Source: an uncultured Paracoccaceae bacterium
GTDB taxonomy: Bacteria; Pseudomonadota; Alphaproteobacteria; Rhodobacterales; Rhodobacteraceae
Assembly: GCA_943787785.1 (NCBI GenBank)
Contig: CALSNT010000012.1
Span: 62,001-126,000 of the forward strand
Length of the DNA stretch: 64,000 bases
Direction of reading: 5' to 3'
Shown here one piece after another: positions 9,469-60,157 of this stretch. Within the stretch, counting starts at the first letter, position 1. The number at the start of each line of letters is the position of its first letter. The position numbers were made by a program, and so were the translations under genes. Below the pieces are notes generated by a model. It worked only from the letters and a program-made list of their open reading frames with translations. It had not been told where the DNA came from and did not search any database.

Positions 9469-9934
9469 CCTTTTCGCCTATACTGACGGCGCCTGCAGCG
9501 GCAATCCCGGCCCCGGTGGCTGGGGCGCGCTGCTGATTGCGCGGGACGGCGATTCAATTGTCCGCAGCCGCGACCTAAGCGGTGGTGAGGCCGAAACAAC
9601 CAACAACCGCATGGAATTGATGGCCGCCATCAGCGCCCTGGAAAGCCTGACCCGGCCCAGCGCCATCACCATCATCACCGACAGCACCTATGTGAAGAAC
9701 GGCATCACCACCTGGATTCATGACTGGAAGCGGAAAGACTGGCGCACCGCCGCCAAGAAGCCGGTCAAAAACGCCGACCTGTGGCAGCGCCTCGACGCCG
9801 CACAGGATCGCCACGACGTAACTTGGGAATGGATCAAAGGTCACGCAGGCCACGCCGAAAACGAACGCGCTGACGAGTTAGCGCGCGAAGGCATGGCTCC
9901 GTTCAAGCCCAAACCCGCGCGCCGAGTGGATTGA
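9461..9934 (+). CDS. rnhA: Ribonuclease HI
   Basis: Degrades the RNA strand of RNA-DNA hybrids (R-loops, Okazaki primers). The protein has 157 residues, the usual length. The catalytic carboxylates are visible: Asp in [16 protein letters not shown], Glu in [12 protein letters not shown], Asp in [12 protein letters not shown] and the C-terminal Asp in [11 protein letters not shown]. The basic handle region ([20 protein letters not shown]) is also present. It overlaps the preceding methyltransferase gene. Confidence 0.97.
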
Positions 9935-47472: not shown

Positions 47473-48338
47473 TGAGTGGTCTCCGCAATTGCCTCGGCCT
47501 TCGCCAAGGTGGCCCGCGCCGTGGCGACATGCAAGTTCTCGACGATCCTGCCGTCCAGAACTGCAACCCCCTGACCAGCGGCCTCAGCCTCAGCAAAGGC
47601 CGCAATCTGACGGCGGGCAAGCGCAACCTCGGTCTCGTTTGGAGCGAAGGCAGCGTTCGCAATCTCCAGTTGTGCGGGGTGGATGAGGCTTTTGCCGTCC
47701 ATGCCCAGCGCACGGCCGTCATCGCATTCGCCCCGCAGCCCGTCATCGTCTTTGAAGGCATTGTAGACGCCATCTACGCAGGCAATCCCTGCGGCGCGGG
47801 CCGCCAGAACGCAGGTCTGCAACGCCATCCGCATCGAAGCCCGCCCGGTCCCTTCAGGCAGGTGCAAATCCTTAGCCAGATCATTGGTCCCGATCACAAA
47901 CCCCTGCATCCCCGGCGCATCGGCAATCGCCAATGCGTTCAGGATGCCGCGCGGCGTTTCCATCATCGCCCAGATCGCCGTGCCACCAAGATCAGTTTGA
48001 TCCATCATCCCAGACAGTGTCGCGATATCCGCCGCCCCATCCACTTTCGGAAGCAAAATCCCATCCGGGGATGCCCCGGCCAGCGCCGACAGATCATCCC
48101 GCGCCCATTCGGTGTCGAGCGCATTGATCCGCGCCACCCGCGCGCGGGAACCATAGCCACCGGTCGTCAGCGCCTCGGCCAATGCGATGCGGGCGTCTGC
48201 CTTGGCGTCCGGCGCAACTGCATCCTCAAGATCGAAGATGATTGCATCGGTCGGCAGGCTGCGCGCTTTCTCCAAAGCCCGCGCGTTCGATCCCGGTATA
48301 TAGAGCATGGATCGCCAAAGGTGTCGTTCGCTGCCCAT
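47469..48338 (-). CDS. mcl2: (3S)-malyl-CoA thioesterase Mcl2 (HpcH/CitE family)
   Basis: A 289-residue TIM-barrel protein of the CitE/malyl-CoA lyase family. RSMLYIPGSNARALEKARSL, DAIIFDLEDAVAP with the Mg ligand Asp/Glu, WAMMETPRGILNA and MDGKSLIHPAQLEIAN are seen. It resembles the R. sphaeroides (3S)-malyl-CoA thioesterase more than the longer lyase Mcl1, from memory. It hydrolyses (3S)-malyl-CoA to malate at the end of acetyl-CoA assimilation. First gene of mcl2-nnrU-DUF1737-mch-DUF4344; malate dehydrogenase lies just beyond. Confidence 0.88.
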   Translation of the reverse strand: MGSERHLWRSMLYIPGSNARALEKARSLPTDAIIFDLEDAVAPDAKADARIALAEALTTGGYGSRARVARINALDTEWARDDLSALAGASPDGILLPKVDGAADIATLSGMMDQTDLGGTAIWAMMETPRGILNALAIADAPGMQGFVIGTNDLAKDLHLPEGTGRASMRMALQTCVLAARAAGIACVDGVYNAFKDDDGLRGECDDGRALGMDGKSLIHPAQLEIANAAFAPNETEVALARRQIAAFAEAEAAGQGVAVLDGRIVENLHVATARATLAKAEAIAETTQ

Positions 48339-48508
48339 GATGTCCCCTCGACCACTGCGTTCGCCGCCATGCAGCATAATGCGTGGTCTCAGTTCAACCC
48401 GGTTTTTGCCTGTAGCGCAGTGGCATCATGACGCTGAGCGCAGCGTTAATCACTTGGTTGCCTTGTGCCCACAGACCCGCGGCGTTTTTCGCAGATCAAG
48501 GATACCAA

Positions 48509-49926
<1,418 letters not shown>

Positions 49927-49937
49927 GGCGCGCCTGG

Positions 49938-50615
49938 TTGCCGTCCCTGATAGAGACCCACAAGCTCGCGTTTTTCGGCATTCCGAAAATCGCGAGCACA
50001 TCCATGAAGCTGGTATTGTTTGAATTGCAATACGGCAAGCCAATCAGTGATTACACGCCGCCACCCGGGCAAAAACTTAAGCCCCTGCATGACCACTATC
50101 CTTCGCGCAAGTTGCAGCGAAATGACTTCGAACGGTGTGAAAACTATTGGAAATTCGCGGTGGTGCGCGATCCTGTAGATCGAATCCTGTCTGCCTATGG
50201 ACATCGCGTCGTGGGCCTTGGCGATCTTGAGAAACGCTCTTCGGCCAAACGCAAAGCCCGCTTTTTGCGGATCAGCCTGCGTCCGGACCTGGAAGAATTC
50301 TGCCTGCGCCTTAACCGCTATCGGTTTATGTCGCGGTTGATCCGCCATCATGTCCGACCTCAATCCGATTTCCTCGGCCATGATCTCTCTAAACTCGACG
50401 CGAGTTACCCGATTGAGTCGATGGCGAAACTGGCAGATGATCTGGCGGAGCGCACTGGCCGACCAATCGAGATTCCAAAGAATTCAGGTGTCGGACCCAG
50501 GTTCACCCGCAGTGACATGTCGCCAAAGGCCACGCGCGCCATAGTGCGCAACTTTGCTGCCGACTATAATCTTTTGCGCGGAGTTTACCTGCCACCTTCG
50601 AACAGTAAGCATTGA
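49938..50615 (+). CDS. Sulfotransferase family 2-like protein
   Basis: A 225-residue protein with a PAPS-binding loop near its N-terminus (LAFFGIPKIASTSMKLVL) and a second phosphate site WKFAVVRDPVDRILSAYGH, as in Sulfotransfer_2 and carbohydrate sulfotransferases. A TTG at 49938 is the only start just upstream of the PAPS loop; the first ATG lies after it, so either TTG is used or translation continues from the end of mdh. Likely modifies surface polysaccharide, given the glycosyltransferase gene next to it. Confidence 0.78.
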   Translation: MPSLIETHKLAFFGIPKIASTSMKLVLFELQYGKPISDYTPPPGQKLKPLHDHYPSRKLQRNDFERCENYWKFAVVRDPVDRILSAYGHRVVGLGDLEKRSSAKRKARFLRISLRPDLEEFCLRLNRYRFMSRLIRHHVRPQSDFLGHDLSKLDASYPIESMAKLADDLAERTGRPIEIPKNSGVGPRFTRSDMSPKATRAIVRNFAADYNLLRGVYLPPSNSKH

Positions 50616-50958
50616 CGCCATCAACCTCGTAGCTCTGCAGACACACCGCGGCCACGATCCAGCGCGTTTTGATGGGATTTGTCTAATCGAAAACAGCTTG
50701 GCACTTACGGGTGAATTAAGCCTGTATCTCGGGCATCAGATCTCCGTGCCCGATTTCCCGGCTACAGGGCCACGACTATTTCGGGGCGATCTCGCCGGTT
50801 CAAATCAACGGACGGAGGTGGGCACCGTCGCGACGGATTACCGCATTCAGGAAATTCTCAGGCCAATTTCTACAACGCGCTAGGGGTGTACGCTACGCAA
50901 CGTCTACCCTTAATGATTGTGGCATTTGTTGGAGTGGGTAAAAACGAGGCAATCATTA
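50616..50958. other. 343-bp lower-GC gap before the GT61-methyltransferase gene
   Basis: No gene is supported. A plus-strand open frame (50554-50883) starts inside the sulfotransferase gene and has no recognisable features; it could be a remnant of an inserted gene. GC is visibly lower than in flanking housekeeping genes. Confidence 0.45.
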
Positions 50959-52836
50959 TTGGATCCGCAGGCCGCTATCAAACCCTCAGAGTTCCATCAA
51001 ACCTCGCTGCCCAAGTCCGAAATGCGCGTCAGCGCTGGAGCGCTGATCGTGCCAATCAGGCGACGCATTGCTGGACCGGGCGGACGGTGGGCGGGTGGCG
51101 TGTTTTCAGCCGACGGTTCGCCCCTTCCAACTCATATGGCACGCATACAGAAACCGTTCAAATCCGTGGATCCGACGCTGACAGATCCGACCGCGGATCT
51201 GCAATCCGCGCCGGTGATCCCAGGCGACTGGCTGTATTGCGGCGCATCTTCGAAGCAGTTCGGCCACATAATGACACGCGGTCTGGGGCAGCTTTGGGCG
51301 CGGCAGTTCTTGCCCACCGGTACAGGCCTGGCTTTCGCGGGCATTTATCAGTCCAGCAGCCAGAACCCGGTGATTGATGCGGTGTGCGAAGCACTTGATC
51401 TGACGTCCCCCCACCACGTGGCAACCCGCCCGACCCGGTTCGAACGCCTTCACCTGGCCCCGGATCTGTTTAGCGACGCGACCAATGGCACTCCCGCGCC
51501 CGCCTACGTCGACTGGATTCGCCAGAAGATCCCCCAAGCTGATGGGACCGGACGCCGCATTTATGTGTCGCGCTCGGCGCTGGTCCCGACACTGGGGCGC
51601 ATTCTGTGCGAGGATATTCTGGAACAGAACCTGATCGCAGATGGTTACGAGGTCTTTCACCCACAAGCCGCCAGCCTGAAACAGCAATTGGCCATCTACC
51701 GGGCCGCCACCGACATTATCGCAATGGAAAGTTCGGCGCTCCACGTCATCCCCTTTGCGTCGCAGCCGGGTGCGCGGCTGACTGTGATCCAGCGGCGCCC
51801 GGATCTGCCTGCGCTGATCAAAAATCAGATCACCGGTTTTTCAAAAGGCAGCGCGACCTTCGTGAACGCCATTTCCAGAATCTACTGGCCCGAAGTCCGC
51901 GCTGATAATTCCAGCCTTGCGGCACTGGATTTTGATGCGCTGAAGACCTCTCTGTTCGAAGCGGGTGCGTTAAATCGCAACGATCAGTGGCGCAGTCCCT
52001 CGGAAGAAGAAACACAAGAATCACTGCGGATGGGGCGTGCAAGGACGGCTCGTTTCATGAACGATGCAGAACGCCGCCAGTTCCTGCGCGACCGGCGACG
52101 CAAACGGAGAAAGAGTGACATAGCCATGACCCAGACAGACAGTATGGATCCGATTCCTCACATCAGCGGCAAGCGGTATTTCAGAATGCTGAAATCGCTG
52201 CACGAACGGATCAGACCGGATTGGTATCTGGAAGTTGGTACGTTTTCCGGCCGGAGCCTTGCACTGGCCAATTGCAATTTCGTTTCCGTGGACCCGAGCT
52301 TCCAGATCAAGCATCCAGTAATCAACGCCACCGGAAAGGAAATGCTGTTCGTTCAAAAGCCAAGCGATGATTTTTTTGCCTCGACCTTTATTGGGCGCAA
52401 CAAGATCAAATTTGACATGGCTTTTTTGGACGGAATGCATCAGTTCGAATTTCTGCTGCGCGATTTCATCAACACCGAAAAGGTGATGCAGCCCGGTGGC
52501 TGCGTCCTTCTCCATGATTGCTGCCCGACAACGCACGAGATGGCCGTGCGGGACTTTCATCCTGGCGACTGGACCGGGGATGTCTGGAAAACGCTTCTCA
52601 TCCTGCTGCGCAACCGCCCCGACCTGGACATACAGGTCGCCAACGCGGCCCCGACCGGCCTTGTGGTGATCCGGGGCCTAAATCCCAAAAGCCGGGTGCT
52701 GCGGACGCACTATGACGAACTGGTCGCGGAATACGAAGCGATGACACTCGACGGGTTGGAAGGTGGGCTGGGCGGGCTCTACCGAAATTTTGAACTGCTG
52801 AGCGATGACGCGGTCCTGGACACATTTGAAACTTGA
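50959..52836 (+). CDS. Fusion of GT61-family glycosyltransferase and class I methyltransferase
   Basis: A 625-residue protein. The first part has the glycosyltransferase 61 (DUF563) pattern: GRRIYVSRSALVPTLGR, then EQNLIADGYEVFHPQAASLKQQL and AATDIIAMESSALHVIPF. A basic linker (RDRRRKRRKS) leads to a SAM methyltransferase of the Methyltransf_24 type: PDWYLEVGTFSGRSLALANC, FDMAFLDGMHQFEFLL and GGCVLLHDCCPT. Start is a TTG at 50959 with GAGG nine bases upstream; a TTG at 50917 would add 14 residues. A two-step glycan modification enzyme is likely. Next to the sulfotransferase gene. Confidence 0.78.
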   Translation: MDPQAAIKPSEFHQTSLPKSEMRVSAGALIVPIRRRIAGPGGRWAGGVFSADGSPLPTHMARIQKPFKSVDPTLTDPTADLQSAPVIPGDWLYCGASSKQFGHIMTRGLGQLWARQFLPTGTGLAFAGIYQSSSQNPVIDAVCEALDLTSPHHVATRPTRFERLHLAPDLFSDATNGTPAPAYVDWIRQKIPQADGTGRRIYVSRSALVPTLGRILCEDILEQNLIADGYEVFHPQAASLKQQLAIYRAATDIIAMESSALHVIPFASQPGARLTVIQRRPDLPALIKNQITGFSKGSATFVNAISRIYWPEVRADNSSLAALDFDALKTSLFEAGALNRNDQWRSPSEEETQESLRMGRARTARFMNDAERRQFLRDRRRKRRKSDIAMTQTDSMDPIPHISGKRYFRMLKSLHERIRPDWYLEVGTFSGRSLALANCNFVSVDPSFQIKHPVINATGKEMLFVQKPSDDFFASTFIGRNKIKFDMAFLDGMHQFEFLLRDFINTEKVMQPGGCVLLHDCCPTTHEMAVRDFHPGDWTGDVWKTLLILLRNRPDLDIQVANAAPTGLVVIRGLNPKSRVLRTHYDELVAEYEAMTLDGLEGGLGGLYRNFELLSDDAVLDTFET

Positions 52837-52871
52837 CGCCGTAACCCCTACTGAACCTTCGTGCATCCTGC

Positions 52872-52902
52872 TGTGATCACGCCGCCGATTGCCGTGATCA
52901 CA
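52872..52902. promoter_or_regulatory. Twin palindrome upstream of sucC
   Basis: Two copies of the perfect 8-bp palindrome GTGATCAC (52873-52880 and 52894-52901), centres 21 bp apart, which also form a 10-bp inverted repeat TGTGATCACG / CGTGATCACA. The spacing is two helical turns. It is 105-135 bp before the sucC start. A dimeric repressor or activator (GntR- or CRP-like) is plausible; no T tract follows, so a terminator is less likely. Confidence 0.5.
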
Positions 52903-53006
52903 AAGCCCAGATTCTAAGCCGACTCTGTCACCGTTCGTCGAATATTGGTTTCACCGTCGATGAATGTCGTGACATAAATCGCCATAGCAACGGAACCGGG
53001 GGCGCA

Positions 53007-54200
53007 ATGAATATCCACGAATATCAGGCCAAATCACTGCTGCGCAGCTATGGCGCACCGGTCAGTGAAGGACGTGCTGTCACACGGGCTGAGGACGCGA
53101 AGTCCGCGGCCGGCGAGCTCGACGGTCCGGTCTGGGTCGTCAAGGCGCAAATCCACGCGGGCGGGCGCGGCAAGGGCACTTTCGCGGAAGCTGACGCTGG
53201 TGAGAAAGGCGGGGTTCGGATCACCAAGTCGGTCGGTGAAGCCGCGGCCGAGGCCGAAAAGATGCTGGGACGCACGCTTGTGACCCATCAGACCGGCCCG
53301 GCGGGCAAACAGGTCAACCGCATCTATATCGAAGACGGCGCGGCAATCGCGAAAGAATTCTACCTCGCGCTGCTGGTTGATCGCGGTTCCAGCCGGGTGT
53401 CCTTCGTCTGCTCGACCGAAGGCGGCATGGACATCGAAGAGGTCGCGGCCTCCACGCCCGAAAAAATCGTCAGCTTCTCGGTTGATCCGGCCACCGGCTA
53501 CATGCCGTTTCACGGGCGGCGCATCGCCTTCGCGCTGGGCCTGGAGGGCAAGGCAGTCAAGCAATGCGTCGGGTTGATGGGCACGCTTTACAAGCTGTTT
53601 AACGAAAAAGACGCCGAGATGGTCGAGATCAACCCCCTGATCCTGACCGAGGGGGGCGAATTGGTCTGCCTCGACGCAAAGATGGGCTTTGATTCCAACG
53701 CCATGTACCGCCAGCCCGATATCGCCGCGCTGCGCGACGAAACCGAAGAAGACCCCAAAGAGCTTGCAGCGTCGAAGTTCGATCTGAACTACATCGCGCT
53801 GGACGGCGAAATCGGCTGCATGGTCAACGGCGCGGGCCTCGCGATGGCGACGATGGACATCATCAAGCTCTACGGCTCCGAGCCCGCCAACTTTCTGGAC
53901 GTCGGCGGTGGCGCTACCACGGAGAAGGTCACCGAGGCGTTCAAGATCATCACCTCCGACCCAAACGTCAAAGGCATACTGGTCAACATCTTCGGCGGCA
54001 TCATGCGCTGTGACGTGATCGCCGAAGGCGTGGTGAGTGCTGTGAAAGAAGTCGGCCTGCAAGTGCCCCTGGTCGTTCGACTGGAGGGCACCAACGTCGA
54101 AAAGGGCAAAGAGATCATCAACAAAAGCGGCCTGAACGTGATCGCAGCCGATGATCTTGGCGACGCGGCCGAAAAGATCGTGAAGGCGGTCAAAGGATAA
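53007..54200 (+). CDS. sucC: Succinyl-CoA ligase (ADP-forming) beta subunit
   Basis: The 397-residue ATP-grasp subunit of succinyl-CoA synthetase. [20 protein letters not shown] at the start, [14 protein letters not shown] for nucleotide binding, [22 protein letters not shown], and [20 protein letters not shown] / [15 protein letters not shown] in the C-terminal flavodoxin-like domain. First gene of sucC-sucD and the likely promoter-proximal gene of the whole suc block. Confidence 0.97.
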
Positions 54201-54201
54201 T

Positions 54202-54260
54202 CGTAGGCCGGGCTTCAGCCCGGCACCCACCGAGCATGCCGGGCTAAAGCCTGGCCTACG
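54202..54260. repeat. REP-like inverted repeat between sucC and sucD
   Basis: Arms of 23 bp: CGTAGGCCGGGCTTCAGCCC... (54202-54224) and its complement (54238-54260), 21 of 23 positions matching, 13-nt loop. Arms of this GTAGGCCGGGCT type are common REP-like elements in proteobacteria. It fills the whole sucC-sucD gap and could form a hairpin in the mRNA that alters the SucC:SucD ratio or stability. Confidence 0.75.
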
Positions 54261-54271
54261 GAGACAATTGA

Positions 54272-55153
54272 ATGGCAATCCTCATCGACGAAACCACCAA
54301 GGTCATCTGCCAGGGCTTTACCGGCTCTCAGGGCACCTTCCACTCGGAACAGGCGATTGCCTATGGCACGCAGATGGTCGGCGGGGTAACGCCGGGCAAA
54401 GGCGGGCAAAGCCACCTCGATCTGCCGGTTTTCAACTCCTGCCACGAAGCGGTTGCGACCACCGGCGCGAACGCCAGCGTGATCTACGTCCCGCCACCTT
54501 TTGCCGCGGATTCGATCCTCGAAGCGCTGGATGCGAAAATCCCGCTGATCTGCTGCATTACCGAAGGCATCCCGGTCCTCGACATGATGCGCGTCAAGCG
54601 TGCGCTGGAAGGGTCCAGCAGCATCCTCATCGGCCCCAACTGCCCCGGCATCATCACGCCGGATGCGTGCAAAATGGGCATCATGCCCGGCCACATCCAC
54701 AAACGCGGCAGCGTCGGCGTCGTCTCGCGTTCCGGCACGCTGACCTATGAGGCAGTGAAGCAGACGACCGACAGCGGCCTCGGCCAGTCCACCGCCGTCG
54801 GCATCGGCGGCGACCCGATCAAGGGCACCGAGCACATCGACGTGCTGGAATGGTTTCTGGCCGACGACGAAACCCAGTCCATCATCATGATTGGTGAGAT
54901 CGGCGGCTCAGCCGAGGAAGAGGCCGCGCAGTTCATCAAGGACGAGGCCAAAAAGGGTCGCTCCAAACCTGTTGCGGGATTCATCGCAGGACGCACGGCC
55001 CCTCCGGGCCGTCGGATGGGCCACGCAGGCGCGATCGTCGCTGGTGGCAAAGGCGGTGCCGAGGACAAGATCGATGCAATGAAATCCGCCGGAATCGTTG
55101 TCGCTGATAGCCCGGCAACGCTGGGCAAGGCGGTCCTGGATGCGATTGGGTAG
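54272..55153 (+). CDS. sucD: Succinyl-CoA ligase alpha subunit
   Basis: The 293-residue CoA-binding subunit. Start [28 protein letters not shown]; the catalytic phosphohistidine is in [38 protein letters not shown] is the second signature. Works with SucC to form succinate and ATP from succinyl-CoA. Confidence 0.97.
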
Positions 55154-55181
55154 GCGGACAAAAAGGATTTGAGATAGCGCC

Positions 55182-55886
55182 ATGCGCCGCGCCGCACATT
55201 CGCGAACACGCAGGTTTCTCCAGATCCCGCTGGCGTCAGTCGCGATTGCCATTGCCGCCATCGCTGCCGCTGATGTGAAAGCCCAAATCGGCGACGTGAC
55301 GAACGACGCGCCGACCCCACTCGCGGCAATGTTTATGGCCTGCGTTGCACCAGACGTTCCGATGGCCCTGCGTGCCAAGGCGGTGCAGGACGCGGGCTGG
55401 CAGGCCGCAACGAGATCGCCTCAGACAACTGGCAAACTGGCCGAGCAACTGGCAGTGCGGGCCGACCGTGGCGACCCTCCGCAAAGCTGGGCGACGGTGC
55501 TTAGCGAAGCGAGGATGCAGGCAAGTGCGCCAGACCCGGAAATGCGCCTATTTGTCATCGACGGTGACGTGCCAAGCCTGCTGGCGATTCGCCACGACCC
55601 AGCAACCGGCAGTGTGTCCTGCGGCTACTCCGCTTCTGACAGCAGTCGCGAGGCGCTGCAGCTTTTGCTGGGCGTCGGCAAGGACCCTTCTGAGCAATCT
55701 GGTGGCACCCTGACCATCCGCGCTGCCGTCACCGTGCGCGCCGTTGTTAAGGACAAGCTATCCCGCGGCTGGCAGGTCGAGGCGTCCTCGCATTTCGCCG
55801 ACCCCACCGAAATCACCACCGACACCGGCCAGTCGTTTTCCACCGCCTTCGCGCTGTCCATAGCGCTGACCCCTGCGGAGAACTGA
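55182..55886 (+). CDS. Hypothetical secreted protein (paralogue-like to 56547-57197)
   Basis: A 234-residue protein with a basic N-terminus and a signal-type hydrophobic segment (LASVAIAIAAIAAADVKAQ). The mature part has an opening MFMACVAPDVPMALRAKAVQDAGWQAAT, later VSCGYSASDSSREALQLLLG. The same arrangement (Cys, DVP/DIP, Ala helix, GWQ-A) appears in the gene at 56547. No known domain. 28 bp after sucD; co-transcribed with the suc genes. Confidence 0.75.
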   Translation: MRRAAHSRTRRFLQIPLASVAIAIAAIAAADVKAQIGDVTNDAPTPLAAMFMACVAPDVPMALRAKAVQDAGWQAATRSPQTTGKLAEQLAVRADRGDPPQSWATVLSEARMQASAPDPEMRLFVIDGDVPSLLAIRHDPATGSVSCGYSASDSSREALQLLLGVGKDPSEQSGGTLTIRAAVTVRAVVKDKLSRGWQVEASSHFADPTEITTDTGQSFSTAFALSIALTPAEN

Positions 55887-55895
55887 GGTTTCTTG

Positions 55896-56501
55896 ATGAT
55901 CAATCTGTCATCGCATTCGCGCTTTTGGGAACGGACAAATGTTCCTGATCAGATAAAACGAAGATCAAGGCTGGCTTGCACTCTGCTGAAAGAGGAACTG
56001 AGCCGAAGTTTCGACTTTCGCGGACGAACTGCACGTGGTGGCTACCTTGCCTTCCTTGTGACGGCGACCTGTATTCTTGCAGGAACACTTTGGCTTGCCG
56101 CGCAAATATCCGCCCACGATAAGTTCTGGTGGAATGCCTTGATGATCGTCGCTGTATTTTACATTCCGGTGACGTCCGCCGGAGTACGCCGTCTGCATGA
56201 CGCAGGTCACAGTGGCGTATTCATGCTGGACCCGCTGAAGCCGACGGTGGTGTTTCTTGTCATCACGTATCTCGGGCGAATGCTATTTGTCGGGGGTTTC
56301 AGTCTTGTCGCGCTGGACGGGTCGTTTGCACTGGTCACGCTTTTTGCTGCCCCTTTTGCATTTTTTGTGTGGATGATCGCTTTCCTTGGCTGTTTCGTGG
56401 CCACGATGGTTTATTTCGCCAATACAATGGGCTTGCTGCTTCTACCTTCCCAGCCCGGTACAAACGCCTACGGTCCTAACCCTCATGAGGTAACCCCATG
56501 A
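55896..56501 (+). CDS. DUF805 family membrane protein
   Basis: A 201-residue protein with an N-terminal SFDFRGRTARGGYLAFLV segment and the motif RRLHDAGHSG, the DUF805 signature, with four membrane helices. DUF805 proteins are uncharacterised inner-membrane proteins. GAGG precedes the ATG at 55896. Its stop overlaps a 15-codon frame that resembles the start of sucA. GC is lower than in sucD and sucA. Confidence 0.82.
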   Translation: MINLSSHSRFWERTNVPDQIKRRSRLACTLLKEELSRSFDFRGRTARGGYLAFLVTATCILAGTLWLAAQISAHDKFWWNALMIVAVFYIPVTSAGVRRLHDAGHSGVFMLDPLKPTVVFLVITYLGRMLFVGGFSLVALDGSFALVTLFAAPFAFFVWMIAFLGCFVATMVYFANTMGLLLLPSQPGTNAYGPNPHEVTP

Positions 56502-56545
56502 CCGAGCAATTCCCCAACGACATTCCTGAGGCAATGATAGGTTAA
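56498..56545 (+). pseudogene. Short frame duplicating the sucA 5' end
   Basis: ATG at 56498 reads MTEQFPNDIPEAMIG then stops at 56543-56545. The true sucA start at 57194 reads MTEESPNDQFHAS. In DNA, ATGACCGAGnAATnnCCCAACGAC is shared, and both copies overlap the preceding gene's TGA in the same way. The likely explanation is that the old sucA start was left behind when the 56547 gene was inserted with a partial duplication. A coincidental leader peptide is the alternative. Confidence 0.5.
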
Positions 56546-56546
56546 G

Positions 56547-57197
56547 ATGCCTCAACAGTTCAGCATAACTTCTGCGGCGGCCTGCGTCTGCTTCATGACT
56601 CTGTCCGGGCTAGCTGAATCCGGCCCGAGCAATCCGGCGCTTGTTGCAGCGTTCGATTTATGTACAGACATCCCGCAAGACGTAGAAACCGCGCGTTCCA
56701 TTTTGAGAGGGAACGGCTGGCAAAGCGCGACCGACGCGGCCCAATCGGCCCTCTTCAATGCGTTCACGGTGTTTCAGTTCAAATCCGACGACCTTGACTT
56801 CACTTTTTCGAACGCAGGCTTCATGGCCGTCTCGGTGTTGGGGAATTCCGCTTTAGGGCGGGACCAAGTAGGTATGCGGGCAGAGGCGGACACGCTCGCC
56901 GTTCTGGGCGTTCCTGAGGGTCGCCCATACTGCATTCTGACCGGCTCTGATGCGTTGCTCGAGACGCTCCTGAAGGACCAAAGCTTCATCGAGCGCACCA
57001 GCGTGACATCTGACGTCGTGACACAGGTCACAGGTGTCGTGCGAAACCAAGTCACTGCGACGGTCGGTAAGATCGAAAGCAGGAAGCTGGCCGAAGCAAT
57101 TGCAGCATCTGAAATCCCAGAAGACGACGCGACCGAGATCATGAGGATTCTCAACCCGGTCACCATCCATTTTGTATCTTCGGAGGTCGAAAAATGA
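56547..57197 (+). CDS. Hypothetical secreted protein before sucA
   Basis: A 216-residue protein with an N-terminal signal-like segment (ITSAAACVCFMTLSGLAES). It has ALVAAFDLCTDIPQDVETARSILRGNGWQSATDAAQ near the N-terminus, resembling the 55182 gene. The end of the gene overlaps sucA by four bases (ATGA). It lies one base after the sucA-like mini-frame. No known domain. Confidence 0.72.
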   Translation: MPQQFSITSAAACVCFMTLSGLAESGPSNPALVAAFDLCTDIPQDVETARSILRGNGWQSATDAAQSALFNAFTVFQFKSDDLDFTFSNAGFMAVSVLGNSALGRDQVGMRAEADTLAVLGVPEGRPYCILTGSDALLETLLKDQSFIERTSVTSDVVTQVTGVVRNQVTATVGKIESRKLAEAIAASEIPEDDATEIMRILNPVTIHFVSSEVEK

Positions 57198-60157
57198 CCG
57201 AGGAATCTCCCAACGACCAGTTCCACGCCTCGTCCTTCCTTCAGGGGCACAACGCGGAATATGTTGAGGCTCTGCATGCCCGATATGCCGATGACCCTTC
57301 TGCCGTCGATGACGCATGGCAGAGGTTCTTCCGCCAGCTCGGCGATGCCAGTGGTGATGCCAAGGCCGAAGCGACCGGGCCGTCCTGGGCGCGGGCCGAT
57401 TGGCCACCTGCCGCCTCGGACGAAGTGACCGCCGCATTGGATGGCCAATGGGGCAGCCTTGGTGCGCCCGAGGCGAAAGCGGCTGGCGATAAGATCAAGT
57501 CGAAGGCCGCTGAGAAGGGCGTCGAGATTTCCGAAGGCATGGTGCGCCGCGCCGTCACCGACAGCTTGCGCGCCCTGATGCTGATCCGTGCCTATCGGAT
57601 CCGGGGTCACCTGATTGCCGACCTCGACCCGCTTGGGATGCGCGACCAAACCGAGCATCCCGAACTCAGCCCAGCCTCCTACGGCTTCACTGCTGCCGAC
57701 ATGGACCGCCCGATCTTCATCGACAACGTCCTGGGGCTTGAGGTCGCAACGCTGTCGGAAATCCTCGCACTGGTAAAACGCACCTATTGCGGCACCTTCG
57801 CGCTGCAATACATGCACATCTCGGACCCGGACGAGGCGGGCTGGCTTAAAGAACGCATTGAGGGGTTGGGAAAAGAGGTCAGCTTTACCGAAAACGGCCG
57901 CCGCGCGATCCTCAACAAGATGGTCGAGGCGGAAGGCTTCGAAAAATTCCTCCACGTCAAATACATGGGCACCAAGCGGTTCGGGTTGGACGGCGGCGAA
58001 AGCCTGATCCCGGCGATGGAACAGATCATCAAGCGCGGTGGCGCATTGGGCGTCGAGGAGATCGTGATCGGCATGCCGCACCGGGGCCGCCTCAGCGTCC
58101 TCGCCAACGTCATGCAGAAACCCTACAAGGCGATCTTCAACGAGTTTCAGGGCGGCAGTTTCAAGCCAGAAGACGTCGATGGTTCGGGCGATGTGAAATA
58201 TCACCTTGGCGCATCCTCCGACCGCGAATTCGATGACAACACCGTCCACCTGTCCCTGACAGCAAATCCCAGCCACCTTGAGGCTGTGAACCCGGTGGTG
58301 ATCGGCAAGGTCCGCGCCAAGCAGGCGCAGCTGGGCGACAAAGAACGCACACGGGTGATGCCGCTGCTGCTGCACGGCGACGCGGCCTTCGCCGGTCAGG
58401 GCGTCATTGCCGAATGCTTTGGCCTGTCGGGTCTGCACGGCCACATGACCGGCGGCACCGTCCACATCGTCGTCAACAACCAGATCGGCTTTACCACCGC
58501 GCCGCATTTTTCCCGCTCGTCGCCCTACCCGACCGACATCGCGATGATGGTCGAAGCGCCGATATTCCACGTCAACGGCGACGACCCGGAGGCTGTGGTC
58601 CACGCCGCCAAGGTCGCGACTGAATTCCGCCAGAAATTCCACAAGGACGTGGTGATCGACATCTTCTGCTATCGCCGTTTCGGCCATAACGAGGGGGATG
58701 AACCCATGTTCACCAACCCCCTGATGTACAAGAAAATCAAGGACCAGAAGACCACGCTGACCCTCTATACTGAACGTCTGGCCCGCGACGGGCTGATCCC
58801 GGCGGCGGACATCGAAGACATGAAGGCGGCATTCCAGGTCCATCTGAACGAGGAATTCGAGGCCGGGAAGAACTACAAACCCAACAAGGCCGACTGGCTG
58901 GATGGCCGCTGGAGCCATCTGGATCGCCACGGCGAGGAATACGAGCGCGGCCAGACGGCAATCTCCCCGGAAACGCTGGCTGATATCGGCAAGGCGCTGA
59001 GCACGCCACCCGACGACTACCCGCTTCACAAGACAGTGGGCCGCCTGCTGGAAGCCAAGGCGCAGATGTTCGAAAACGGCGCAGGCTTCGACTGGGCCAC
59101 GGGTGAAGCGCTGGCCTTCGGCTCTCTCCTCACTGAGGGGTATCCGGTGCGTCTGGCCGGCCAGGACTCGACCCGCGGCACGTTCTCCCAGCGCCACTCA
59201 GGGCTGGTCAATCAGGACACCGAGGAACGCTATTACCCGCTGAACCACGTCCGAGAGGGTCAGGCGCAGTATGAGGTCATCGACTCGATGCTGTCCGAGT
59301 ATGCGGTCTTGGGTTTCGAGTATGGCTATTCGTTGGCCGACCCCAATTCGCTGGTCATGTGGGAAGCGCAATTCGGCGATTTCGCCAACGGCGCGCAGAT
59401 CATGTTCGACCAGTTCATCAGCTCGGGCGAGTCAAAATGGCTGCGCATGTCGGGTCTGGTCTGCCTGCTGCCGCATGGGTTCGAGGGGCAAGGGCCAGAA
59501 CACTCTTCAGCCCGCCTCGAACGCTTCCTGCAGATGTGTGGGCAGGACAACTGGATCGTCGCCAATTGCACCACTCCTGCGAATTACTTCCACATTCTGC
59601 GCCGCCAGATCCATCGGGACTTCCGTAAGCCGCTGGTGCTGATGACCCCAAAATCCCTGTTGCGCCACAAGGGTGCGGTCAGCGACGCCGAGGATTTCAC
59701 CACCGGATCCTCGTTCCACCGGCTGCTGTGGGACGACGCGCAGAAGGGCAATTCCGACACCAAACTGGTCACCGACAAGAAAATGAAACGCGTGGTGCTG
59801 TGTTCAGGCAAAGTCTACTTCGATCTGCTGGAAGAACGCGACGCGCGCGGCATCAAGGACATCTACCTGCTGCGCTGCGAACAATTCTATCCATTCCCGG
59901 CCAAGTCGATGATCGACGAGCTTAGCCGCTTCCCGAACGCCGACGTTGTCTGGTGCCAGGAAGAACCGAAAAACCAGGGGGCCTGGACCTTCATGGACCC
60001 CAACATCGAGTGGGTGCTGACCCGGATCAACGCCCCGACGACCCGCGCCGCCTACGTGGGTCGCCAGGCATCCGCCTCGCCCGCGACGGGTCTGGCCAGC
60101 ATGCACAAATCGCAACAAGCAGCGCTGGTAAACGACGCGCTGACGCTTTCCGAATAA
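57194..60157 (+). CDS. sucA: 2-oxoglutarate dehydrogenase E1 component
   Basis: The 987-residue thiamine diphosphate enzyme that decarboxylates 2-oxoglutarate and acylates the lipoyl group of SucB. The N-terminal helix SSFLQGHNAEYVEALHARY starts the family segment. IVIGMPHRGRLSVLANVMQKP, the TPP motif GDAAFAGQGV...NNQIGFTT and QEEPKNQGAW at the C-terminus are diagnostic. The ATG at 57194 overlaps the preceding gene; 12 bp separate it from sucB. Confidence 0.98.
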   Translation: MTEESPNDQFHASSFLQGHNAEYVEALHARYADDPSAVDDAWQRFFRQLGDASGDAKAEATGPSWARADWPPAASDEVTAALDGQWGSLGAPEAKAAGDKIKSKAAEKGVEISEGMVRRAVTDSLRALMLIRAYRIRGHLIADLDPLGMRDQTEHPELSPASYGFTAADMDRPIFIDNVLGLEVATLSEILALVKRTYCGTFALQYMHISDPDEAGWLKERIEGLGKEVSFTENGRRAILNKMVEAEGFEKFLHVKYMGTKRFGLDGGESLIPAMEQIIKRGGALGVEEIVIGMPHRGRLSVLANVMQKPYKAIFNEFQGGSFKPEDVDGSGDVKYHLGASSDREFDDNTVHLSLTANPSHLEAVNPVVIGKVRAKQAQLGDKERTRVMPLLLHGDAAFAGQGVIAECFGLSGLHGHMTGGTVHIVVNNQIGFTTAPHFSRSSPYPTDIAMMVEAPIFHVNGDDPEAVVHAAKVATEFRQKFHKDVVIDIFCYRRFGHNEGDEPMFTNPLMYKKIKDQKTTLTLYTERLARDGLIPAADIEDMKAAFQVHLNEEFEAGKNYKPNKADWLDGRWSHLDRHGEEYERGQTAISPETLADIGKALSTPPDDYPLHKTVGRLLEAKAQMFENGAGFDWATGEALAFGSLLTEGYPVRLAGQDSTRGTFSQRHSGLVNQDTEERYYPLNHVREGQAQYEVIDSMLSEYAVLGFEYGYSLADPNSLVMWEAQFGDFANGAQIMFDQFISSGESKWLRMSGLVCLLPHGFEGQGPEHSSARLERFLQMCGQDNWIVANCTTPANYFHILRRQIHRDFRKPLVLMTPKSLLRHKGAVSDAEDFTTGSSFHRLLWDDAQKGNSDTKLVTDKKMKRVVLCSGKVYFDLLEERDARGIKDIYLLRCEQFYPFPAKSMIDELSRFPNADVVWCQEEPKNQGAWTFMDPNIEWVLTRINAPTTRAAYVGRQASASPATGLASMHKSQQAALVNDALTLSE

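Follow-up and report, generated by a model that had tools for sequence, protein, structure and literature searches.

A predicted glycosyltransferase-methyltransferase fusion in a recurrent insertion site between the tricarboxylic acid cycle genes mdh and sucC of Rhodobacteraceae

Introduction

The described systems closest to the locus reported here are glycan enzymes that include a methyltransferase and chromosomal integration hotspots. MeT1 from Mycobacterium hassiacum is described as methylating the 1-OH of mannose oligomers, its gene lying in a cluster with that of a mannosyltransferase (PMC9883506). WbdD and the Klebsiella pneumoniae O7 methyltransferase-kinase, which terminate O-antigen chains by methyl capping, are multi-module glycan proteins whose methyltransferase works together with further modules (PMC3482155, PMC11231755). 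Integration hotspots, for their part, combine constant core flanks with many unrelated tenants and many empty sites. Here we analyze a stretch of 64,000 nucleotides from an uncultured Paracoccaceae bacterium of the family Rhodobacteraceae (assembly GCA_943787785.1, contig CALSNT010000012.1, positions 62,001 to 126,000; hereafter the window), in which one reading frame between the tricarboxylic acid (TCA) cycle genes mdh and sucC joins a glycosyltransferase family 61 (GT61) domain to a class I methyltransferase domain.

The genes for surface glycans are usually looked for in clusters of their own, and if lineage-specific decorating enzymes sit singly inside TCA-gene clusters, ordinary annotation misses them. 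Gaps between TCA genes may harbor surface-sugar variation that has escaped notice. Considering its domains, predicted structure and genomic distribution, we regard it as likely that the gene encodes a true glycan enzyme with two predicted and putatively coupled activities, residing in a cargo slot at a TCA-gene junction.

Results

Domain architecture and predicted structure of the fusion

The fusion gene lies on the forward strand at 50959–52836, within a frame open from 50917, and encodes 625 residues. Pfam matches in the same frame are Glyco_transf_61 (PF04577) at residues 115–286 (E 1.2e-8, 35.7 bits against a gathering cut-off of 27) and Methyltransf_24 (PF13578) at residues 438–535 (E 2.5e-8, 35.2 bits against a cut-off of 26.3), the GT61 domain spanning 50959–52110 and the class I O-methyltransferase-like domain 52141–52833. 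Neither a kinase domain (Pfam) nor any NCBIfam match was found in the fusion. These results agree with the first-pass annotation of this DNA, made from the letters alone, which had placed a sulfotransferase dependent on 3'-phosphoadenosine 5'-phosphosulfate (PAPS) and a GT61-methyltransferase fusion between mdh and sucC.

The AlphaFold model of the fusion shows two domains, with a mean predicted local distance difference test score (pLDDT) of 89 and a predicted template modelling score (pTM) of 0.67. The glycosyltransferase half matches POMGNT2 chains (Z 15.0, 280 residues aligned, root-mean-square deviation 4.1, around 10% identity), POMGNT2 being itself a GT61 member. The methyltransferase half resembles COMT-like O-methyltransferases (Z around 14) and MeT1 (6g80; Z 13.4, 20% identity), and another MeT1 entry, 6g7d, was the sole PDB sequence match at E≤0.001, obtained with the family profile (E 4.8e-4). 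The Foldseek/VIA matches listed were dominated by these two folds, and absence from that list does not speak against any other fold. Across 36 sequences, residues E425, G427 and G431 of the methyltransferase domain are invariant and presumably form motif I, the glycine motif that binds S-adenosylmethionine; D491, H494, H519 and D520 are equally invariant, and by analogy with MeT1-like sugar O-methyltransferases they may be metal ligands.

Among the fusion homologues, conservation already sets in ahead of the first ATG (51022), which rules out this codon as the start. The gene most likely begins within a cluster of TTG codons at 50917–50959, with 50959 as the best candidate.

Distribution and history of the fusion

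The order GT61-Methyltransf_24 was found in a single frame in 5 of 394 family genomes, including that of the window. In addition, a genome_contigs scan gave 64 loci, twelve of which (L110–L116 and L118–L122) carry the fusion in an open frame; four of the fusion loci were taken as the same genomes as G193, G409, G205 and G022. The first-pass annotation had raised the possibility of a read-through or sequencing artefact, an explanation that these twelve intact homologous frames rule out. Two further copies are broken, one interrupted (L117) and one frameshifted (L145), and a distant match to both domains, a candidate fusion, was obtained at L165.

In all 14 cases with a contig reaching both flanks (the window, L110–L119, L121, L122 and L145; the contig of L120 is too short) the fusion is located between mdh and sucC. 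It is co-oriented with mdh in the window, L110, L114, L116, L118, L119, L121 and L145, beginning 2–15 bp past the end of the mdh match in the same-strand loci L114, L116, L118 and L121, and is opposite to mdh in L111, L112, L113, L115, L117 and L122. A tree built from 62 methyltransferase domains unites the 14 fused copies and the unfused copy of L123 in one clade (support 99/97), inside which the six inverted copies form a clade of their own (support 100/99). This topology fits a single origin at mdh|sucC and one inversion, with L123 representing an unfused state. In L123 (genome G185) the same site holds a separate GT61 gene and methyltransferase gene, with the GT61 gene on the other strand and 27% identical. 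Two genes are therefore an alternative to the fusion at mdh|sucC in this one genome.

For six close pairs, dN/dS was 0.08–0.27 in the glycosyltransferase half and 0.03–0.13 in the methyltransferase half (rough values, since dS is high), and by this codon-level measure purifying selection acts on the close fusion copies. The pairing of the two domains recurs, as indicated by genome G404, where they occur in reverse order in one 641-codon frame (the GT61 half above the Pfam cut-off, the methyltransferase-like half found by tblastn and without a Pfam match), and by G352, where GT61 and Methyltransf_24-like domains are adjacent.

That the gene is instead degenerate or mis-assembled is extremely improbable. 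The two broken relatives speak for it, together with a serine in the window where four other aligned fusions have glycine in the GT61 motif (E/D)GS; yet its 625 residues are in line with the 617–631 of intact relatives that have a clear start, both folds are modelled at the mean pLDDT given above, and the invariant methyltransferase residues are retained. A phage or plasmid origin is likewise unsupported: among 72,556 plasmid and 50,697 phage records none covers 80% of the fusion, and the rows listed contain single-domain matches only.

In G193, a second GT61 copy lies upstream of the fusion, split over two reading frames (L106, 5872–6796), the second of which reads open into the fusion gene to give an 805-codon frame.

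Gaps between TCA genes as insertion slots

The gaps between neighboring TCA genes were measured in a sample of 120 family genomes, whose occupancy counts are not phylogenetically independent. Between mdh and sucC, 54 of 98 gaps exceed 500 bp and 44 are at or under that length; the genomes left out had no match, had the genes on another contig or strand or, in G070 and G118, far apart. Gaps over 500 bp were also frequent at sdhA|sdhB (68/114) and sucC|sucD (47/108). The control junction sucA|sucB, assessed in the 83 genomes whose sucB match begins at query residue 4 or earlier, had none, the maximum being 56 bp. The distance between mdh and sdhA is below 15 kb in 88 of the 91 genomes with both genes on one contig, and in 87 of these 88 they are on opposite strands. 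Unrelated accessory genes thus lie between the same core pair, mdh and sucC, alongside empty sites, as in a chromosomal hotspot, and the description of the surroundings as an otherwise housekeeping TCA block was misleading. Other usual marks of hotspots are absent: we found no tRNA within the window, no repeat pair bracketing the island and, with Pfam, no recombinase domain in the sulfotransferase or the fusion.

Contents of the slots

Open reading frames (ORFs) in the gaps were picked by script (longest, weighted by GC content at third codon positions, with a minimum of 90–100 residues), and some are spurious. Pfam tallies were made for 84 ORFs of at least 180 residues at mdh|sucC, for 75 of at least 160 residues at sdhA|sdhB, and for 38 of 39 ORFs of at least 100 residues at sucC|sucD (one with masked bases was dropped), the latter from 20 of the 47 gaps over 500 bp, namely the 15 over 1200 bp plus five others. 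At mdh|sucC, among the 25 of 53 families listed, we found Glyco_tranf_2_4 16 times, Sulfotransfer_2 three times, Glyco_transf_61, Glyco_transf_8 and Nucleotid_trans twice each, and Capsule_synth once. At sdhA|sdhB there were overlapping methyltransferase families with up to six matches each, FkbM (3), PS_pyruv_trans (2), Sulfotransfer_1 (2), Wzy_C (1) and single glycosyltransferase families, and at sucC|sucD Glyco_transf_25 (2), Methyltransf_23 (2), Sulfotransfer_2 (1) and PMT_2 (1). By the union of clusters and Pfam, a recognizable glycan-type enzyme is present in 25 of the mdh|sucC gaps, of which 54 are filled.

One could read this cargo as neutral, with TCA junctions that simply tolerate insertions and glycan genes that share no role and were drawn haphazardly from the mobile gene pool. 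The many unrelated tenants are in agreement with such a reading, as are the lack of a recombinase among the tenants scanned and of a tRNA in the window, and the gene remnant described below and the interrupted copies, which indicate turnover. Nevertheless, 150 Glyco_tranf_2_4 matches were counted across 25 family genomes (around 99 Mb, or around 1.5 per Mb), so that around 0.2 would be expected by length in the 132 kb of mdh|sucC gaps, approximately 80-fold fewer than the 16 observed; moreover, three different junctions repeatedly hold members of sulfotransferase, methyltransferase and glycosyltransferase families, and the fusion is under purifying selection. We therefore consider neutral cargo unlikely. 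A wider proposal, possible in our view although rather doubtful, is that sdhA|sdhB, mdh|sucC and sucC|sucD together form one distributed glycan-diversification locus decorating the same envelope glycan and tied to central-metabolism expression, into which lineages would load their own single glycosyltransferases, methyltransferases, sulfotransferases and pyruvyltransferases instead of maintaining a classical polysaccharide cluster.

The sdh genes of the source genome are on another contig, with a 5 kb sdhA|sdhB gap (L254, G000:C13:22453-27760) that contains an FkbM methyltransferase, a Glyco_trans_1_2 glycosyltransferase and a Glyco_tranf_2_4 gene, the profile of the last being in two halves that flank a 408-residue frame. 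The tally of sdhA|sdhB ORFs includes one transposase match, which is presumably this 408-residue frame. Mostly short frames from the sdhA|sdhB gaps of 28 genomes fall into one cluster, and some members may be spurious.

Relatives of the Methyltransf_24 domain lie between sdhA and sdhB at 22 of the 64 genome_contigs loci. This location could suggest that the methyltransferase half modifies a protein, or else a small molecule, belonging to the TCA enzymes, hence its presence at both sdhA|sdhB and mdh|sucC. We find this very unlikely, given that glycosyltransferases are joined to the domain, or paired with it, in varied arrangements, that the top PDB sequence match of the domain is a sugar O-methyltransferase and that it is missing from most family genomes. 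Glycan modification is the likeliest role of the fusion. Two observations on the relatives at sdhA|sdhB may be added. In L126, L135, L136, L139, L142 and others the domain often extends in frame by around 330 residues that, by sequence, look like a CgeB-like glycosyltransferase, and in L175 (genome G001) it is found in two pieces approximately 7 kb apart (2432–2587 and 9500–9931).

The sulfotransferase and the remnant in the spacer

The predicted PAPS-dependent sulfotransferase is encoded at 49938–50615 on the forward strand, its TTG start codon 11 bp past the end of mdh. It matches Sulfotransfer_2 (PF03567; E 4.5e-15, 56.9 bits against a cut-off of 22), and in G001, a genome of the same genus, its orthologue (65% identity) occupies the corresponding position; no NCBIfam match was obtained, nor any PDB sequence match at E≤1. 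The loops IPKIAS and VVRDPVDRILSAY are common to both proteins, and we take them to be the PAPS-binding loops. TTG is the only start codon ahead of the first of these loops, and the G001 gene likewise offers TTG alone at that position, in support of the probable TTG start that the first-pass annotation had given to this gene; the one it had given to the fusion agrees with the homologues, as described above. APS kinase is needed for PAPS; its gene is present in the genome, so PAPS is probably available to the enzyme.

The spacer between the sulfotransferase and the fusion is not empty, since 50650–50847 (forward strand) encodes the C-terminal third of a decayed second sulfotransferase, 43% identical over 65 residues to the G001 protein and 32% over 66 residues to its intact neighbor. 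Its score against the G001 sulfotransferase is 48.5 bits, the best of 2000 shuffles reaching 23.9; the spacer frame has no NCBIfam match.

It had been proposed that the sulfotransferase and the fusion act as one unit making a sulfated and methylated surface glycan. The two genes are adjacent and co-directional behind mdh, only 11 bp separate mdh from the first, no terminator-like site lies between them on their strand, and the genome encodes the APS kinase for PAPS supply. On the other hand, in the mdh|sucC gap of G001 the sulfotransferase occurs by itself, and at E≤0.01 no sulfotransferase match was obtained at any other fusion locus (L110–L122 and L145), so the two genes look like independent tenants; in addition, the spacer remnant and their unequal GC content suggest that they arrived separately. 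The joint glycan is accordingly unsupported, and we judge it improbable, somewhat more so than neutral cargo. A sulfotransferase gene with a layout resembling that of the window was also observed between sucC and sucD in another genome (G105; L261:564-1268).

Flanking genes and base composition

Along the window the order is mdh, sulfotransferase, spacer, the frame at 50917–52836 and sucC. The left core flank, mdh (malate dehydrogenase; 48964–49926, forward strand), has Ldh_1_N and Ldh_1_C matches and orthologues 67–89% identical in 115 other family genomes. The right one, sucC (succinyl-CoA synthetase beta subunit; 53007–54200, forward strand), has best matches 73–88% identical in most family genomes searched, that of G001 being 98% identical.

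The GC content is 0.617 for the window, 0.538 for the sulfotransferase and 0.534–0.551 for the spacer, and within the fusion 0.545 for the methyltransferase half against 0.602 for the glycosyltransferase half. The lower GC of the spacer, pointed out in the first-pass annotation, was thus recovered; taken alone it is a mild deviation, because 7.5% of the 300-bp pieces of the window are equally low. No Rfam RNA elements were found across 48300–57300, and the promoter and terminator scan gave scores at or below those of shuffles. Downstream, the sucD-sucA interval (55182–57197) has three small frames, one with DUF805, so this TCA junction carries cargo as well.

Discussion

The reading that we favor, of a bifunctional glycan enzyme in a cargo slot, can be put as follows. 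The GT61 domain, with its POMGNT2 fold, would move a sugar from a nucleotide sugar onto a glycan under construction, whose new end the class I methyltransferase domain behind it would O-methylate, both steps probably taking place in the cytosol, so that sugar addition and methyl capping would be coupled in one protein whose product may end up at the cell surface. The fusion would occupy the slot between mdh and sucC, one of several at TCA-gene junctions that appear to be repeatedly filled, emptied and inverted, their tenants often being single glycosyltransferase, methyltransferase or sulfotransferase genes, together with unrelated genes. The sulfotransferase would be an independent tenant of this slot, lying beside a decayed second one.

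Several observations weigh against this reading. With respect to the protein, same-order fusions are rare (the 5 of 394 family genomes given above), the pTM of 0.67 makes the mutual placement of the two domains uncertain, and the interdomain link is a single 23-residue helix (369–391) rather than the long coiled-coil ruler of known chain terminators. With respect to the slot, the occupancy counts lack phylogenetic independence, and the commonest mdh|sucC tenant, present in 17 of the 54 filled gaps, is an exported-looking family without a Pfam match. Peptidase, toxin-antitoxin, RTX and regulator genes occupy mdh|sucC too, which implies that the slot is not purely glycan. The members of the exported-looking family (L071:1011-2231 and 16 other genomes) are around 400–630 residues long and have a signal-like N-terminus, one representative having been scanned.

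If lineage-specific decorating enzymes are indeed housed singly among TCA genes, a handful of defined gaps could be examined to test for surface variation across a widespread marine group. With the fusion, moreover, adding a sugar and capping it with a methyl group could be assayed on one protein, and a cultured carrier exists in Marivita cryptomonadis CL-SK44.

Among known systems, POMGNT2 (AGO61) is like the glycosyltransferase half of the fusion in Pfam family and fold, whereas the latter is bacterial, joined to a methyltransferase and only around 10% identical. MeT1 (6g7d, 6g80) has fold and profile match in common with the methyltransferase half, and its gene, too, is associated with that of a glycosyltransferase, in a cluster; MeT1 itself stands alone, with methylmannose oligomers as its substrates, whereas the window domain is fused behind GT61. 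The resemblance to WbdD and the O7 methyltransferase-kinase consists in their being multi-module glycan proteins that include a methyltransferase; WbdD-type chain terminators have a kinase and a long coiled-coil ruler, neither of which is seen in the fusion with its single linker helix. The likeness to integration hotspots lies in the constant core flanks, the many unrelated tenants and the many empty sites; the differences are that the window has no tRNA, that tenants are often single genes with a strong bias towards glycan enzymes, and that several such gaps occur within one set of metabolic genes. Titles and abstract openings of the literature searched gave no account of glycan genes in TCA-gene gaps and no bacterial GT61-methyltransferase fusion. 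Both aspects of the locus nevertheless belong to known kinds, the fusion to the multi-module glycan enzymes and its location to the chromosomal hotspots.

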